Shown: piece after piece, positions 13,862 to 27,214 of the stretch
How the letters are laid out: the number at the start of each line of letters is the position of its first letter
Position numbering within the stretch: position 1 is the first letter of the stretch
NCBI RefSeq assembly: GCF_029201445.1
Contig: NZ_CP102381.1
Coordinates: 186,001 to 250,000, forward strand
Reading direction: 5' to 3'
DNA length: 64,000 nucleotides
Source of the DNA: Thiomicrorhabdus lithotrophica
Lineage (GTDB): Bacteria > Pseudomonadota > Gammaproteobacteria > Thiomicrospirales > Thiomicrospiraceae
Notes under the pieces: model-generated
What the model saw: the letters and a program-made list of their open reading frames with translations, nothing else
Told to the model about the DNA's origin: nothing
The model's database searches: none
Made by a program: the position numbers and the translations under genes

Positions 13862-14635
13862 ATGAATTCACCGACTATAAAAACGACTAGGTCGATAAAA
13901 ATTGGCTTATTAATTATTGGCGATGAAGTGCTTTCTGGTAAACGTCAGGATAAACATCTTGCACAAGCAAATAGTTTATTGCAACCGAGAGGTTTGGCTT
14001 TAAGTTGGGTGAAGATTGTCGGCGACGAACCAGAGTTTTTGGTAAAGACTTTAAAAGAGAGTTTTGCTAGCGATACCGTCGTTTTTAGTTTTGGCGGGAT
14101 TGGAGCTACACCCGATGACCGAACGCGTCAAAGTGCAGCCTTAGCACTCGATTTGCCTATTGAACGTCATCCAGAAGCCGTAGCAGAAATTGAAGCGCAG
14201 TTTGGGGAAGAAGCTTACCCACAACGTATTCACATGGCTGAGTACCCTCGGGGGGCGGACATTATTCCTAACTTTTACAATCGTGTTCCAGGTTTTTCCA
14301 TTCAAAACCACCACTTCATGCCTGGCTTTCCTATGATGGCCAAGCCCATGATGGAGTGGGTGTTAAATCAATATTATTCTGATTGTTACCAAAGTCCAAC
14401 GATAGAAAAAGGCATTAAAATTTTTAACGGGCAAGAGTCAGAATGGGTAGAGTTTATGGAAAAATTTGAAAAACAATTTCCGCAACTCCGTTTATTTAGC
14501 TTACCTAGTATTGCCGAAGATGACTCTCGTAAGATTGATTTAGGTGTAGAGGGTTTAGAGTCGGACGTATTGCAAGGCTATCAAGTAATTATTGAAGAGG
14601 CTAAACGCAGAGATTCCAATTGGCAGCCGTTATAA
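13862..14635 (+). CDS. Molybdopterin-binding domain protein (CinA-N/MoaB-like)
   Basis: The 257-residue protein starts with a MoCF-type domain: L-L-I-I-G-D-E-V-L-S-G-K at 16-27, then V-F-S-F-G-G-I-G-A-T-P-D-D-R-T, as in the N-terminal domain of CinA and in MogA/MoaB. The C-terminal about 90 residues do not match the CinA amidase. Such stand-alone proteins are often annotated as competence/damage-inducible protein A homologues or as molybdopterin-binding proteins of unknown role. It is single, divergent from thiD, and 9 kb from the molybdopterin genes. Confidence 0.75.
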   Translation: MNSPTIKTTRSIKIGLLIIGDEVLSGKRQDKHLAQANSLLQPRGLALSWVKIVGDEPEFLVKTLKESFASDTVVFSFGGIGATPDDRTRQSAALALDLPIERHPEAVAEIEAQFGEEAYPQRIHMAEYPRGADIIPNFYNRVPGFSIQNHHFMPGFPMMAKPMMEWVLNQYYSDCYQSPTIEKGIKIFNGQESEWVEFMEKFEKQFPQLRLFSLPSIAEDDSRKIDLGVEGLESDVLQGYQVIIEEAKRRDSNWQPL

Positions 14636-23454: not shown

Positions 23455-24816
23455 ATGACAGATCAAATCGTAGAAAAGGTTGCAGTACAGACTGATGAAA
23501 GTCGCAACCAAGGTCGACGTGCCTTTTTAAAAGGTAGCGCGGCTGTAGCTGGTGGTGTGATGTTCACTTCAGCAGCTAACGCAGCAGAGGGTGCTGGTTA
23601 TGACCCTAAGAAAGCAGTAGCCCCTTATGCTGGTAAAGAAGAAATTACAACGGTACTTCAAGATCAGGCGGCACGTAAGTCACTTGGTTTTGGTGTTCGT
23701 AAATACCCATACGGAATGCCTTCTCCTTTTGAAAAAGAAGTTCAGCGTCGTACTCTTGAGTGGTTAACGCCGGATTCAATGGCATCTATCACGATGTCAC
23801 CTTTGCACCAGTTGCACGGTATCATTACTCCAAACGGTCTTCACTTTGAGCGTTTCCACGGTGGTGTACCAACAATCAACCCTGATGAACACCGTTTAGT
23901 AATTCACGGTCTAGTTGAACGTCCTTTAATCTTCACGATGGATGATCTTAAGCGTTTCCCATCTGTATCACGTATTCATTTCGTAGAGTGTCCAGCTAAC
24001 GGCGCGATGGAATGGAAAGGTGTTCAGTTGAACTCTGTTCAGTGGACTCACGGTATGATGTCTTGTGTTGAATACACAGGTGTTCGTCTATCTGACCTAT
24101 TGAAAGAAGCGGGTATCAAGCCAGAAGGTAAGTGGATTATTCCTGAAGGTGCTGATGCATCTGGTATGGCTCGTTCATTACCAGTTGATTTAGCTATGGA
24201 TGATTGTTTCATTGCTTACGCTCAAAATGGTGAAGCGTTACGTCGTGAACAAGGTTACCCAATTCGTTTAGTTGTTCCTGGTTGTGAAGCGAACATGTGG
24301 GTTAAATACCTACGTCGTATCCAAGTTCATGATGTGCCTATGCAGCACCGTGAAGAAACTTCTAAATATACTGAGCTTATGCCTGATGGAACTGCACAGC
24401 GTTTCTCATGGTACATGGAAGCTAACTCAGTAATCACTTATCCTTCTCCTGACTTTAAAATGCAAGGTCCTGGTAAATACTACATCCGTGGTTTAGCTTG
24501 GTCTGGTCGTGGTAAAGTTGCTCACGTTGACGTATCTGTCGACGGTGGTAAGAACTGGAAAGAAGCACACTTTACTTCTGCAGTTTTAGACAAAGCTTGG
24601 ACTCGTTTCGAATTGGAATGGGAATGGGATGGTAAAGAAGCCTTCTTAATGAGCCGTGTTACTGATGAAACAGGTTATGTTCAACCTCCTATGCCGCAAA
24701 TGCGTAACCTAGAAGGTACTAACAACGTTTATCACCGTACAGCAATGGTTACATGGCGTGTACACGCTTGGGAAGATGGTAAAAACGGAGGCATGATTCA
24801 AAATGTTCAGTACTAA
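23455..24816 (+). CDS. soxC: SoxC-like sulfane dehydrogenase, molybdopterin subunit
   Basis: SoxC is the molybdenum subunit of the periplasmic sulfane dehydrogenase that oxidises protein-bound sulfane sulfur in the Sox pathway; the same fold includes sulfite oxidases. The 453-residue protein has a twin-arginine signal (R-R-A-F-L-K-G at 21-27, then a hydrophobic stretch to about 45). The molybdenum-ligand Cys179 lies in V-E-C-P-A-N-G, and a C-terminal dimerisation domain (about 330-450) contains V-S-V-D-G-G-K-N-W. It overlaps soxD by 14 bp, so translation is coupled. The SoxXYZAB genes are not in this window. Confidence 0.9.
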   Translation: MTDQIVEKVAVQTDESRNQGRRAFLKGSAAVAGGVMFTSAANAAEGAGYDPKKAVAPYAGKEEITTVLQDQAARKSLGFGVRKYPYGMPSPFEKEVQRRTLEWLTPDSMASITMSPLHQLHGIITPNGLHFERFHGGVPTINPDEHRLVIHGLVERPLIFTMDDLKRFPSVSRIHFVECPANGAMEWKGVQLNSVQWTHGMMSCVEYTGVRLSDLLKEAGIKPEGKWIIPEGADASGMARSLPVDLAMDDCFIAYAQNGEALRREQGYPIRLVVPGCEANMWVKYLRRIQVHDVPMQHREETSKYTELMPDGTAQRFSWYMEANSVITYPSPDFKMQGPGKYYIRGLAWSGRGKVAHVDVSVDGGKNWKEAHFTSAVLDKAWTRFELEWEWDGKEAFLMSRVTDETGYVQPPMPQMRNLEGTNNVYHRTAMVTWRVHAWEDGKNGGMIQNVQY

Positions 24817-25870
24817 ACAAACTTTAGTTGTAGCTTCAGTTACAGCATTATTCTCAGGTTCTGTACTTGCAATGTCTGGTTCTTCAGACAGCAACACAGC
24901 TTCTGGTGAAAAAATTAATGGTAAGTACGCTGCTAACTACGCTGAGATTATCAAAAACGCTGACGGTAAATATTTAGATAAGACCGTTATTGAAGCGATT
25001 TTAGGTAAAGACGCTACCCATGGTCGTGAAGGCCTTCAGGGTAAGTTAGATCCTGCTAACCCATATTCTTTTGAAGTAGATGACAGCATCGATGGTGGTA
25101 ACCACGGTAACGCTCAGTGTAAGATTCCTGCAGCATTTACTGAAGTGCACGATAGCGTTGCTGCTAACTATCATAACGACGACTATACTGCGCGTGGATT
25201 TGGTACACCAATCGCTGAAGCGGCTTTAGAAAAGTGGAATATCGTTGTTGATGGTGATGGTAAAGGACTTCCTCCTGCTGGCGTCGGTATGACAATAGAA
25301 GAAGGTGGTAAGGTTTACGTTCAGTTCTGTGGTATGTGTCACGGTGAATTCGGTGAAGGTGCTAAAGGGTATTTACCTCTAGCAGTTGAAGAAGATCTAG
25401 TAACTTCTGACTTTAGTGATCCAGCTCCGATGAAAGCAGTTGGTAACTACTGGCCTTACGCAGCAACTTTATTTGATTATATCCGTCGTACAATGCCTTT
25501 CTGGACACCAAACGCACCTTACATCGGTGACGCTGGTTACTTAGGTATGACTGGTTATATTCTTCAGTCAAACTACCTAAAAATTGATGACGAAGGTAAT
25601 GAGTTAGATAACGATACTTTCTTTGATTCAGCTATGCTGATGAAAATGAATAAGTATATGCCTAACCAAGGTAACTTCTTCTGTGATCACCGTCCAGTTA
25701 TTCATAACGAACGTTGTATGACAAACTGTCCTGATGCACAGGTTGCTGATGGTAAGGGTAATATTAACAACTATCGTGAAGCGCGTAAATTACCTGATGG
25801 TACTCCTCAGTATAACGTTCCAGAACGTTTACATGAAGATAAGCCAGGTGTAGGTCACGCCGGCATGTAG
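24803..25870 (+). CDS. soxD: SoxD-like cytochrome c subunit of sulfane dehydrogenase
   Basis: SoxD takes electrons from SoxC and passes them to the c-type cytochrome pool. The 355-residue protein has a Sec signal peptide (about 1-23) and one c-type heme site C-G-M-C-H (176-180) followed by G-E-F-G-E-G. It also shows V-G-N-Y-W-P-Y-A-A-T-L-F-D-Y-I-R-R, characteristic of SoxD. Paracoccus SoxD is diheme; a second CxxCH is not seen here, though C-M-T-N-C lies near the end. The start lies within soxC. A structured element and strong terminator follow. Confidence 0.88.
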   Translation: MFSTKQTLVVASVTALFSGSVLAMSGSSDSNTASGEKINGKYAANYAEIIKNADGKYLDKTVIEAILGKDATHGREGLQGKLDPANPYSFEVDDSIDGGNHGNAQCKIPAAFTEVHDSVAANYHNDDYTARGFGTPIAEAALEKWNIVVDGDGKGLPPAGVGMTIEEGGKVYVQFCGMCHGEFGEGAKGYLPLAVEEDLVTSDFSDPAPMKAVGNYWPYAATLFDYIRRTMPFWTPNAPYIGDAGYLGMTGYILQSNYLKIDDEGNELDNDTFFDSAMLMKMNKYMPNQGNFFCDHRPVIHNERCMTNCPDAQVADGKGNINNYREARKLPDGTPQYNVPERLHEDKPGVGHAGM

Positions 25871-25879
25871 TTTAAGCGC

Positions 25880-25984
25880 CTTAAAGACCCGATAAGCACA
25901 GTTAATTCTGCGTTAGATGTGGGTCACCTACAAGAGTAGGCTTCCACATCTATCTTGCCTTAGCAGCACTTATCGGACTTTAAG
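25880..25984 (+). ncRNA. Candidate structured RNA element downstream of soxD (or a MITE)
   Basis: A closing stem of 15 bp in two parts (CTTAAAG 25880-25886 with CTTTAAG 25978-25984; CCGATAAG 25889-25896 with CTTATCGG 25969-25976) encloses a branched interior. The main inner arm is AGATGTGG (25915-25922) with CCACATCT (25944-25951), topped by CCTAC-AAGA-GTAGG. CTGC (25908-25911) may pair with GCAG (25963-25966). It starts 9 bp after the soxD stop and ends 21 bp before the terminator. It could be a 3'-UTR element, a processed small RNA or a tiny inverted-repeat transposon derivative. Confidence 0.5.
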
Positions 25985-26005
25985 TCAGCTAAAACAAATA
26001 TGTTT

Positions 26006-26043
26006 AAAAACCCACGATTACTTTTGTAATCGTGGGTTTTTTT
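26006..26043 (+). terminator. Strong terminator of soxCD
   Basis: A perfect 16-bp stem (26006-26021 with 26026-26041), TTTT loop and T tail. Confidence 0.92.
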
Positions 26044-26121: not shown

Positions 26122-26150
26122 TTGAATAAATCATTGAACTCTAATATAAA
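26122..26150 (+). promoter_or_regulatory. Candidate promoter of moaA
   Basis: TTGAAT (26122-26127), 17-bp spacer, TATAAA (26145-26150). Transcription would start near 26157, downstream of the soxCD terminator and too late for an ATG at 26162. This supports 26213 as the moaA start. Confidence 0.5.
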
Positions 26151-26212
26151 ATTCGTGTAAAATGCGTTATTCCCGTGCGGCTATAACGCTATACGAAAAC
26201 AAGAAAGATATT

Positions 26213-27214
26213 ATGCGTAAAGAATTAATAGATCCATTTAATCGAAAAATTGAATATGTACGAGTATCCGTAACGGATAAGTGTAATTATCGTTGTGGTT
26301 ACTGTATGCCAGAGCAGGGTGTGCATCCTGATGGCACACATACTGAATATCTATCTTATGATGAGCTTGCTCGCATTATTAAGGCATTTGTTAATCTAGG
26401 TGTAGCTAAAGTGAGACTAACTGGTGGTGAGCCATTAGTACGTAAGAATTTATCAAGTTTAGTTGAACAGATTAGCCAGTATGAAGGTCTTGAAGATATT
26501 GCCTTATCAACCAACGCTCACCATTTAGGTCGAGAGGCCGAAGCTCTGCACAAGGCAGGTATTACACGCGCTAATATTTCAATAGATTCTTTGCGTGTTG
26601 AGCGTTTTAAGAACATCACCCGTGGTGGAGATTTAGAGAAAGTTTTAGCTGGTGTCGATAAAGCATTAGAAGTGGGTATGCAGCCTATTAAGTTTAATAT
26701 GGTAGTAATGAAAGGCACCAATGACGATGAGATTGAAGCCATGGTGGATTATGGCCTAGAGAAAGGCGTTGAAGTTCGTTTTATAGAAACAATGCCGATT
26801 GGTCCAGCTGGAGTCAGTATGATGGATCAACACTATCCTGCGGACAAGATTTTGGCACGTGTTAAAAAGCATGTAGGTAAGGATTTAATTCCAGCCTCAG
26901 GGAAATCGCATGACGGACCTTCACGTAATTTCTTAATTGCTGGTACCAACACTAAGATTGGTGTTATTTCTGCGGTATCACAGCATTTCTGTGAAACCTG
27001 TAATCGTGTACGCTTAACCGCTAAAGGTATTTTAGCGTTATGTCTAGGGCAGGAAGATTCTGTTGATTTGCGTACGCCTTTGCGTGAGGGGATTACCGAC
27101 GAAGGTTTAGAACAATTAATTACCGATGCAATGTTAAAGAAGCCCGAAAAGCACTTCTTTAATGAGAATGTACACAATATAGAATTTAGACAAATGGTTC
27201 AACTAGGCGGTTAA
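26213..27214 (+). CDS. moaA: GTP 3',8-cyclase MoaA
   Basis: MoaA is the radical SAM enzyme that starts molybdopterin synthesis from GTP. The 333-residue protein has the SAM cluster motif C-N-Y-R-C-G-Y-C, the second 4Fe-4S cluster in C-E-T-C-N-R-V-R with a later Cys, and the C-terminal Gly-Gly needed for activity. The start at 26213 is chosen because upstream in-frame codons from 26162 lie almost at the predicted transcription start and match nothing in the family, while residues after 26213 fit the MoaA N-terminus. It leads moaA-moaD-moaE. Confidence 0.93.
   Translation: MRKELIDPFNRKIEYVRVSVTDKCNYRCGYCMPEQGVHPDGTHTEYLSYDELARIIKAFVNLGVAKVRLTGGEPLVRKNLSSLVEQISQYEGLEDIALSTNAHHLGREAEALHKAGITRANISIDSLRVERFKNITRGGDLEKVLAGVDKALEVGMQPIKFNMVVMKGTNDDEIEAMVDYGLEKGVEVRFIETMPIGPAGVSMMDQHYPADKILARVKKHVGKDLIPASGKSHDGPSRNFLIAGTNTKIGVISAVSQHFCETCNRVRLTAKGILALCLGQEDSVDLRTPLREGITDEGLEQLITDAMLKKPEKHFFNENVHNIEFRQMVQLGG

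Follow-up and report, generated by a model that had tools for sequence, protein, structure and literature searches.

An ERIC-related hairpin of apparent MITE descent adjoins the soxD stop codon of Thiomicrorhabdus lithotrophica and may act at the mRNA 3' end

Within a stretch of 64,000 nucleotides from Thiomicrorhabdus lithotrophica (contig NZ_CP102381.1; hereafter the window), a 125-nt imperfect hairpin (25870-25994, plus strand, mRNA-sense) adjoins the soxD stop codon and is followed by a strong terminator. That this hairpin is one diverged copy of a large, transposon-derived hairpin family is well supported by covariance models, by compensatory changes at orthologous loci and by mobile relatives in other genomes. 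On balance, we favour the reading in which an old MITE is retained as a hairpin at the mRNA 3' end, where it would protect or process the soxCD transcript, a role proposed from comparative sequence evidence.

The covariance model that places the element (R1, 100.9 bits; its training sequences included the window copy) starts it at the last base of the stop codon (25868-25870) of a soxD-like cytochrome c gene (24803-25870, plus strand). The only Pfam matches of this open reading frame are cytochrome c domains, and none of the NCBIfam models recognises it; its neighbour is soxC (23455-24816, TIGR04555 in NCBIfam). Downstream lie an intrinsic terminator separate from the element (26006-26041, plus strand; a 16-bp stem and a T run) and moaA (26213-27214, plus strand; NCBIfam TIGR02666, 378 bits; the start is our choice). 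The element alone has a minimum free energy of -43.8 kcal/mol (z -6.1), a stability reached by none of 200 shuffled sequences, and the region 25871-26043, terminator included, reaches -68.6 kcal/mol (z -9.4). The original prediction had described a branched element with a 15-bp split closing stem, an inner arm and a 5-bp apical stem with an AAGA loop. All of these helices recur in the computed fold, the closing stem as 7+8 bp; the branching does not, the mRNA strand giving a single long imperfect hairpin and side branches appearing only on the opposite strand. The strong terminator that it placed ahead of moaA was found, and the promoter of its own that it assigned to moaA corresponds to one 9/12 match at 26134-26163 (shuffle mean 1.8), which is weak evidence. 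The Rfam scan proposed at that time returned no match in the window at the gathering threshold. In 18 other loci scanned at an E-value threshold, nothing matched the element except sub-threshold hits to V_AS5 in the ERIC, Serratia and Aliivibrio stretches, the remaining matches being tRNAs, GlmZ and RtT (Serratia locus) and one weak sR3.

The window copy ends in GTTTAAGC..GCTAAAA. Its conserved core (25902-25963, plus strand; R2 59.4 bits) consists of a two-sided internal loop, an inner stem and an apical stem, with the motifs GGTCACCTAC..GTAGGCTT and CTGCGTT / CTTGCC. A DNA search of the genome finds this one copy and no identical ones, the sole second match being the terminator on its own other strand; covariance models find 18 to 24 copies. 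R1 gives 19 matches at E 0.1; since one is the soxD copy read on its reverse strand, they represent 18 places. The core model R2 gives 24 at E 0.001. The 28 copies used to build R2 comprise 11 from soxD sites (the window's included) and 17 others from the window's own genome. Across these, 16 of the 19 core pairs show two-sided change and the covariation score is 0.507, compared with 0.183 (sd 0.017) after shuffling. All copies share the order CTGCGTT, stem, TCAYTTAC-loop-GTAARCTC, stem, CGCCTTGA: both sides of the internal loop (CTGCGTT and CGCCTTGA) and the bases flanking the apical stem are conserved, and the arms vary by place. A weak R2 match within the window (14567-14616, minus strand, 16 bits) was taken as chance because it lies mostly inside an open reading frame and folds no better than shuffled sequence (z 0.1).

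Beyond this genome, R2 has matches in 51 of the 62 family genomes, among them every one of the 32 from the genus. At E 0.01 it matches 59 of 229 class genomes (at most 23 candidates scored per genome), against a chance expectation of about two. In 12 genomes it gives between 1 and 123 matches each; a match in every one was expected because they had been chosen from pattern hits. The Thiomicrorhabdus arctica genome has 22 of these matches, and its soxD site retains the arms alone. Three T. arctica places are identical to places in genome G022, on which basis the window's genus was taken as Thiomicrorhabdus. A pattern scan found at least 120 stretches carrying the core pattern, with one or two chance matches in the whole collection by our estimate. 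Among the carriers listed are Thiomicrorhabdus arctica, Hydrogenovibrio, Aliivibrio sifiae, Serratia inhibens, Nitrosomonas, Mariprofundaceae, Methylococcales and Sedimenticola, together with a few from Oscillospiraceae, Ruminococcus and Planctomycetota. The matches in these last three groups call for caution because their R2 scores are low (26.6-33.1 bits) and one or two chance matches are expected; they may reflect horizontal spread, contamination or convergence. Core motifs with paired surroundings are seen in three MAGs labelled Ruminococcus, Oscillospiraceae and Planctomycetota (L238, L233 and L239). Tandem arrangements also occur: three copies about 194 bp apart behind an ilvC-like gene (L180, genome G049), two copies in the window genome (G000:C1 1733583-1733839) and another case at L177 (G031). 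In genome G098 a variant (L087, L390-L393) carries the CTGCGTT / GCCTTG core in a very long, nearly perfect palindrome present in several near-identical copies. In the literature we found no description of this hairpin family outside enterics and vibrios, which is weak evidence of absence.

Matches to soxD were found at 60 places in 59 of the 62 family genomes, and we examined the 30 same-genus places together with 20 of the other 30. The element occurs at 14 of the 30 same-genus loci; the core is absent from 16 and is therefore dispensable there. At the 20 further places (19 in other genera and the second soxD of genome G041) R1 gave no match at E 1. Thirteen of the 14 element-bearing loci were aligned, L013 being omitted because its apical hairpin is inverted. 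In this alignment both partners have changed in 35 of 50 pairs without loss of pairing. Covariation scores 0.394 there, compared with 0.156 (sd 0.015) for shuffled and at most 0.163 for slid controls; the structure was derived from the same 13 sequences, and such fitting alone tends to beat slid controls. At the dnaN site, 15 of 47 predicted pairs show compensatory change among orthologs. Mapped onto a soxCD-region tree, the presence of the core needs 5 changes compared with 10.3 when shuffled (1 of 500 shuffles as low); presence at the soxD site fits inheritance with losses. Two loci that retain only the arms (L012 and L023) belong to sisters placed next to a core-bearing genome, and their state looks like a deletion of the core. 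A 23-nt DNA match in genome G023 was rejected as a further copy: it covers one arm only, and R1 has no match in that locus at E 1. Another hairpin beyond chance was found in only 5 of the 16 core-less same-genus loci, and we make no claim that a hairpin always follows soxD. Two close genomes carry the soxD-site element with its apical hairpin in opposite orientations (L013 1370-1500 versus L019 2569-2699) and the remainder nearly unchanged; palindrome-mediated events thus do occur.

We then consider where the copies lie, with directions taken from simple open reading frame calls and gene names read by eye from protein ends or starts. In the window genome, 13 of 18 copies are sense-only behind a stop codon, none is antisense-only and three are convergent (p 2.4e-4). 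A family sample of 60 copies, drawn from the best-scoring places, gives 45 sense, 1 antisense and 4 convergent copies, which are not independent since orthologous sites recur. The core starts 15-35 nt past the stop codon in 57 of 65 sense or convergent copies. Genome G043 has 9 sense, no antisense and 4 convergent copies out of 19 (one duplicate place dropped), and G197 has 9, 1 and 0 out of 11. The recently amplified copies of genomes G271 and G070 show no bias (6 sense, 9 antisense and 4 convergent of 31), so insertion itself is unbiased there. Neither do a class sample of one copy per genome (8 sense, 7 antisense, 2 convergent of 26; L097 dropped) nor nine more copies (2, 1 and 1). Because these three samples are unbiased, the sense bias is a property of some lineages and not of the whole family; because G043, with recent-looking copies, is also biased, the contrast is not one of age alone.

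Copies persist at the same genes across genomes. The genes that recurrently precede them include dnaN, dnaK, ileS, rpsT, atpC, gapA, lpd, ilvC and ubiE (names by eye), the copy behind atpC sitting downstream of the atpC terminator (by eye). Copies also lie directly behind groEL in genomes G278, G162, G172 and G197. A copy between purH and purD is antisense in six family genomes (L058, L146, L156, L158, L182 and L186), and one Aliivibrio copy (L345) stands before a purD-like start in the same direction.

The core is also found in mobile form. IS66 elements have GTAA ends and generate 8-bp duplications. In two class genomes (G271 and G070) the core sits inside units of about 152 bp with IS66-like ends, present as near-identical copies with GTAACTAYTCAG-type terminal repeats. 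Flanking 8-bp duplications with at most one mismatch border 26 of the 31 copies examined in these genomes (39 stretches fetched, eight at contig ends left out; where two right ends were possible, the best-agreeing one was taken). The IS66-ended form also occurs in the same-family genomes G043, G044, G045 and G016. These MITEs (G271, G070, G043, G044, G016 and others) share with the window element an identical core in a 121-153 bp unit with paired arms, and differ from it in their GTAACTAYTCAG-type ends, next to which they carry 8-bp target duplications; the window copy lacks clearly defined ends. GTAAC-type terminal inverted repeats are present in the G271 and G070 copies, and by eye the window element has none. 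In G271 a partial IS66 transposase (profile positions 3-95 of 284) sits behind the same end type, and the IS66 transposase model PF03050 matched nothing in the window genome or in G070. When autonomous partners were sought as pairs of GTAAC-type ends 0.9-4 kb apart, a perfect 8-bp duplication was seen only at L219 5826-6834. With its multiple copies here, and with its core embedded elsewhere in inverted-repeat units that have target duplications, the element looks by descent to be of MITE type. The window copy is apparently no longer mobile in its genome.

ERIC repeats are widely used for strain typing, although where they come from and what they do is poorly understood. The covariance models connect them with hairpins found across the class. 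Like the ERIC / IRU / RU-1 elements of Enterobacteriaceae and Vibrionaceae, the window element is a long, intergenic, multi-copy hairpin of similar length. R1 and R2 were both trained without ERIC. The E. coli ERIC (L056) matches R1 over its full length (30.9 bits, E 6e-4, one strand) and R2 in the centre only (22.9 bits). Against R2, the Serratia inhibens ERIC gives a full-length match (29.1 bits, E 3e-6), two Aliivibrio copies score 55.3 and 47.5 bits, and two ERIC-like copies in genome G391 score weakly (15.8 and 14.0 bits). The R1 score of ERIC is by itself no proof, because wrong-strand R1 matches of 31-48 bits also occur among family members; wrong-strand R2 matches were found at none of 27 class loci tested, three extra matches there lying at other places. 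The claim of kinship is carried instead by the shared order of motifs, CTGCGTT .. GTCACTTAC-loop-GTAAGCTC .. GCCTT. The ERIC ends TATAC..GTATA, visible in L056, and the ERIC arm sequences are absent from the window element, which is a relative of ERIC, not an ERIC. Used as a DNA query, ERIC matched one of 369 class genomes and did not match the window genome; in E. coli, an ERIC sequence matched 5376 of 5426 genomes. A 2024 review places ERIC in Enterobacteriaceae and Vibrionaceae (PMC10969869).

The Vibrio antisense RNA V_AS5 (Rfam RF02818) has opposite-strand matches to the E. coli ERIC (L056 1505-1628), the Serratia ERIC (L310 4594-4706) and an Aliivibrio copy (L345 1273-1395). These three matches (48.1, 25.9 and 39.2 bits, respectively) lie below its cut-off of 96 bits, and none falls in the window. 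Because such sub-threshold matches lie opposite ERIC-type elements, V_AS5 may itself be one. REP elements, hairpins moved by RAYT enzymes, resemble the window element as repeats near gene ends, as do QMITE2 and BRE; the likeness is one of description. QMITE2 of Coxiella is reported to lie mainly in 3' UTRs (PMC5896051) and BRE of Betaproteobacteria as a repeat of about 90 bp, mostly intergenic (PMC3110155).

The original prediction had weighed an mRNA 3' end or a processed RNA against a MITE. A mixture of the two is what the comparisons suggest, each being partly right. The MITE side has its multiple copies and the core in inverted-repeat units with duplications elsewhere; identical copies with target duplications are present in other genomes and, by DNA search, not in this one. 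The mRNA side has the sense position behind stop codons in the genus and pairing conserved in relatives, with strong covariation. In Thiomicrorhabdus the copies are sense, stand at stop codons and keep their pairing despite drift, whereas the two recent-copy genomes are unbiased, which favours a role in the transcript.

In the mechanism that we propose, a diverged transposon-derived hairpin would have been kept in Thiomicrorhabdus as a sense-strand 3'-UTR or intercistronic hairpin. The soxCD mRNA would carry a long hairpin whose base starts at the soxD stop codon. Terminating ribosomes would melt and then re-form this base, and the hairpin would block 3'-5' exonucleases and/or be cut near the asymmetric internal loop (CUGCGUU / GCCUUGA). 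A stable 3' end of the upstream message would thereby be set and its level decoupled from that of the next gene. Three parts of this are inferred: that selection acts at the level of the RNA, that ribosomes and nucleases take part as described, and which way the effect goes; whether the hairpin protects or destabilises cannot be told. In Yersinia, ERIC is reported to change mRNA level depending on its orientation through a ribosome-exposed RNase E site (PMC2229807, PMC10969869). A hairpin base touching the stop codon fits this type of control. The hairpins linked by the covariance models range from recently mobile copies, with visible ends and duplications, to copies retained behind the same genes across many Thiomicrorhabdus genomes. 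They form a natural gradation between mobile DNA and a probable RNA element, with the short conserved loop as a candidate site for a binding factor or nuclease.

More tentatively, and with appreciably less confidence, one asymmetric-loop core may be common to MITEs of the Proteobacteria that differ in their ends (IS66-like with 8-bp duplications; ERIC); Firmicutes and Planctomycetota give weaker matches. Several lineages might have fixed this core downstream of stop codons, in sense orientation, as an RNA element whose loop is recognised by a host factor or nuclease. On that view ERIC would represent one local offshoot of a functional RNA family that is much older.

The main rival to a kept 3'-end hairpin, less probable in our judgement yet serious, is a neutral MITE relic, in which old insertions decay, the arms template each other and position reflects least harm, with no host function. 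The core does occur in MITE-type units of other genomes, the soxD site shows losses and the arms-only relics L012 and L023, and whole-class samples have no direction bias. The inversion between L013 and L019 makes palindrome-mediated events real, and template-switch correction of palindromes could also keep pairing. However, antisense copies should then be about as harmless as sense ones, yet the ratios are 13:0 in the window genome and 45:1 in the family. In addition, both sides of the internal loop are conserved with no need to match each other, and the same genes keep copies across genomes.

Alternatively, the element could be the precursor of a small RNA processed from the soxCD 3' end, which we regard as improbable. 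A long structured stretch followed by an intrinsic terminator would suit such a precursor, and MITEs are reported as small RNA sources in Coxiella (PMC5896051); against this, the element lacks the sequence conservation that a base-pairing small RNA would require, some 18-24 diverged copies stand behind unrelated genes, and no Rfam small RNA matches. Still less probable is a device at the level of transcription that aids termination or insulates moaA from soxCD read-through. The element directly precedes a strong terminator and several other copies are flanked by genes that run the same way, but the terminator is retained (by eye) in same-genus loci that lack the element, and the soxD hairpin itself has no T run. 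A riboswitch or leader of moaA, already doubted in the original prediction and suggested only by the upstream position, is in practice refuted by that same position, with the strong terminator intervening; the same element also stands behind other, unrelated genes, and no Rfam family matches in the window.

Just upstream of moaA lies a 24-bp inverted repeat (26165-26188), CGTTATTCCC-N4-GGCTATAACG. Its half-sites occur in 26 of the 50 soxD-moaA loci searched (L006-L055), mostly directly before a moaA-like start (by eye). The repeat is possibly an operator or a leader hairpin of moaA, and it also speaks for 26213 over 26162 as the moaA start.
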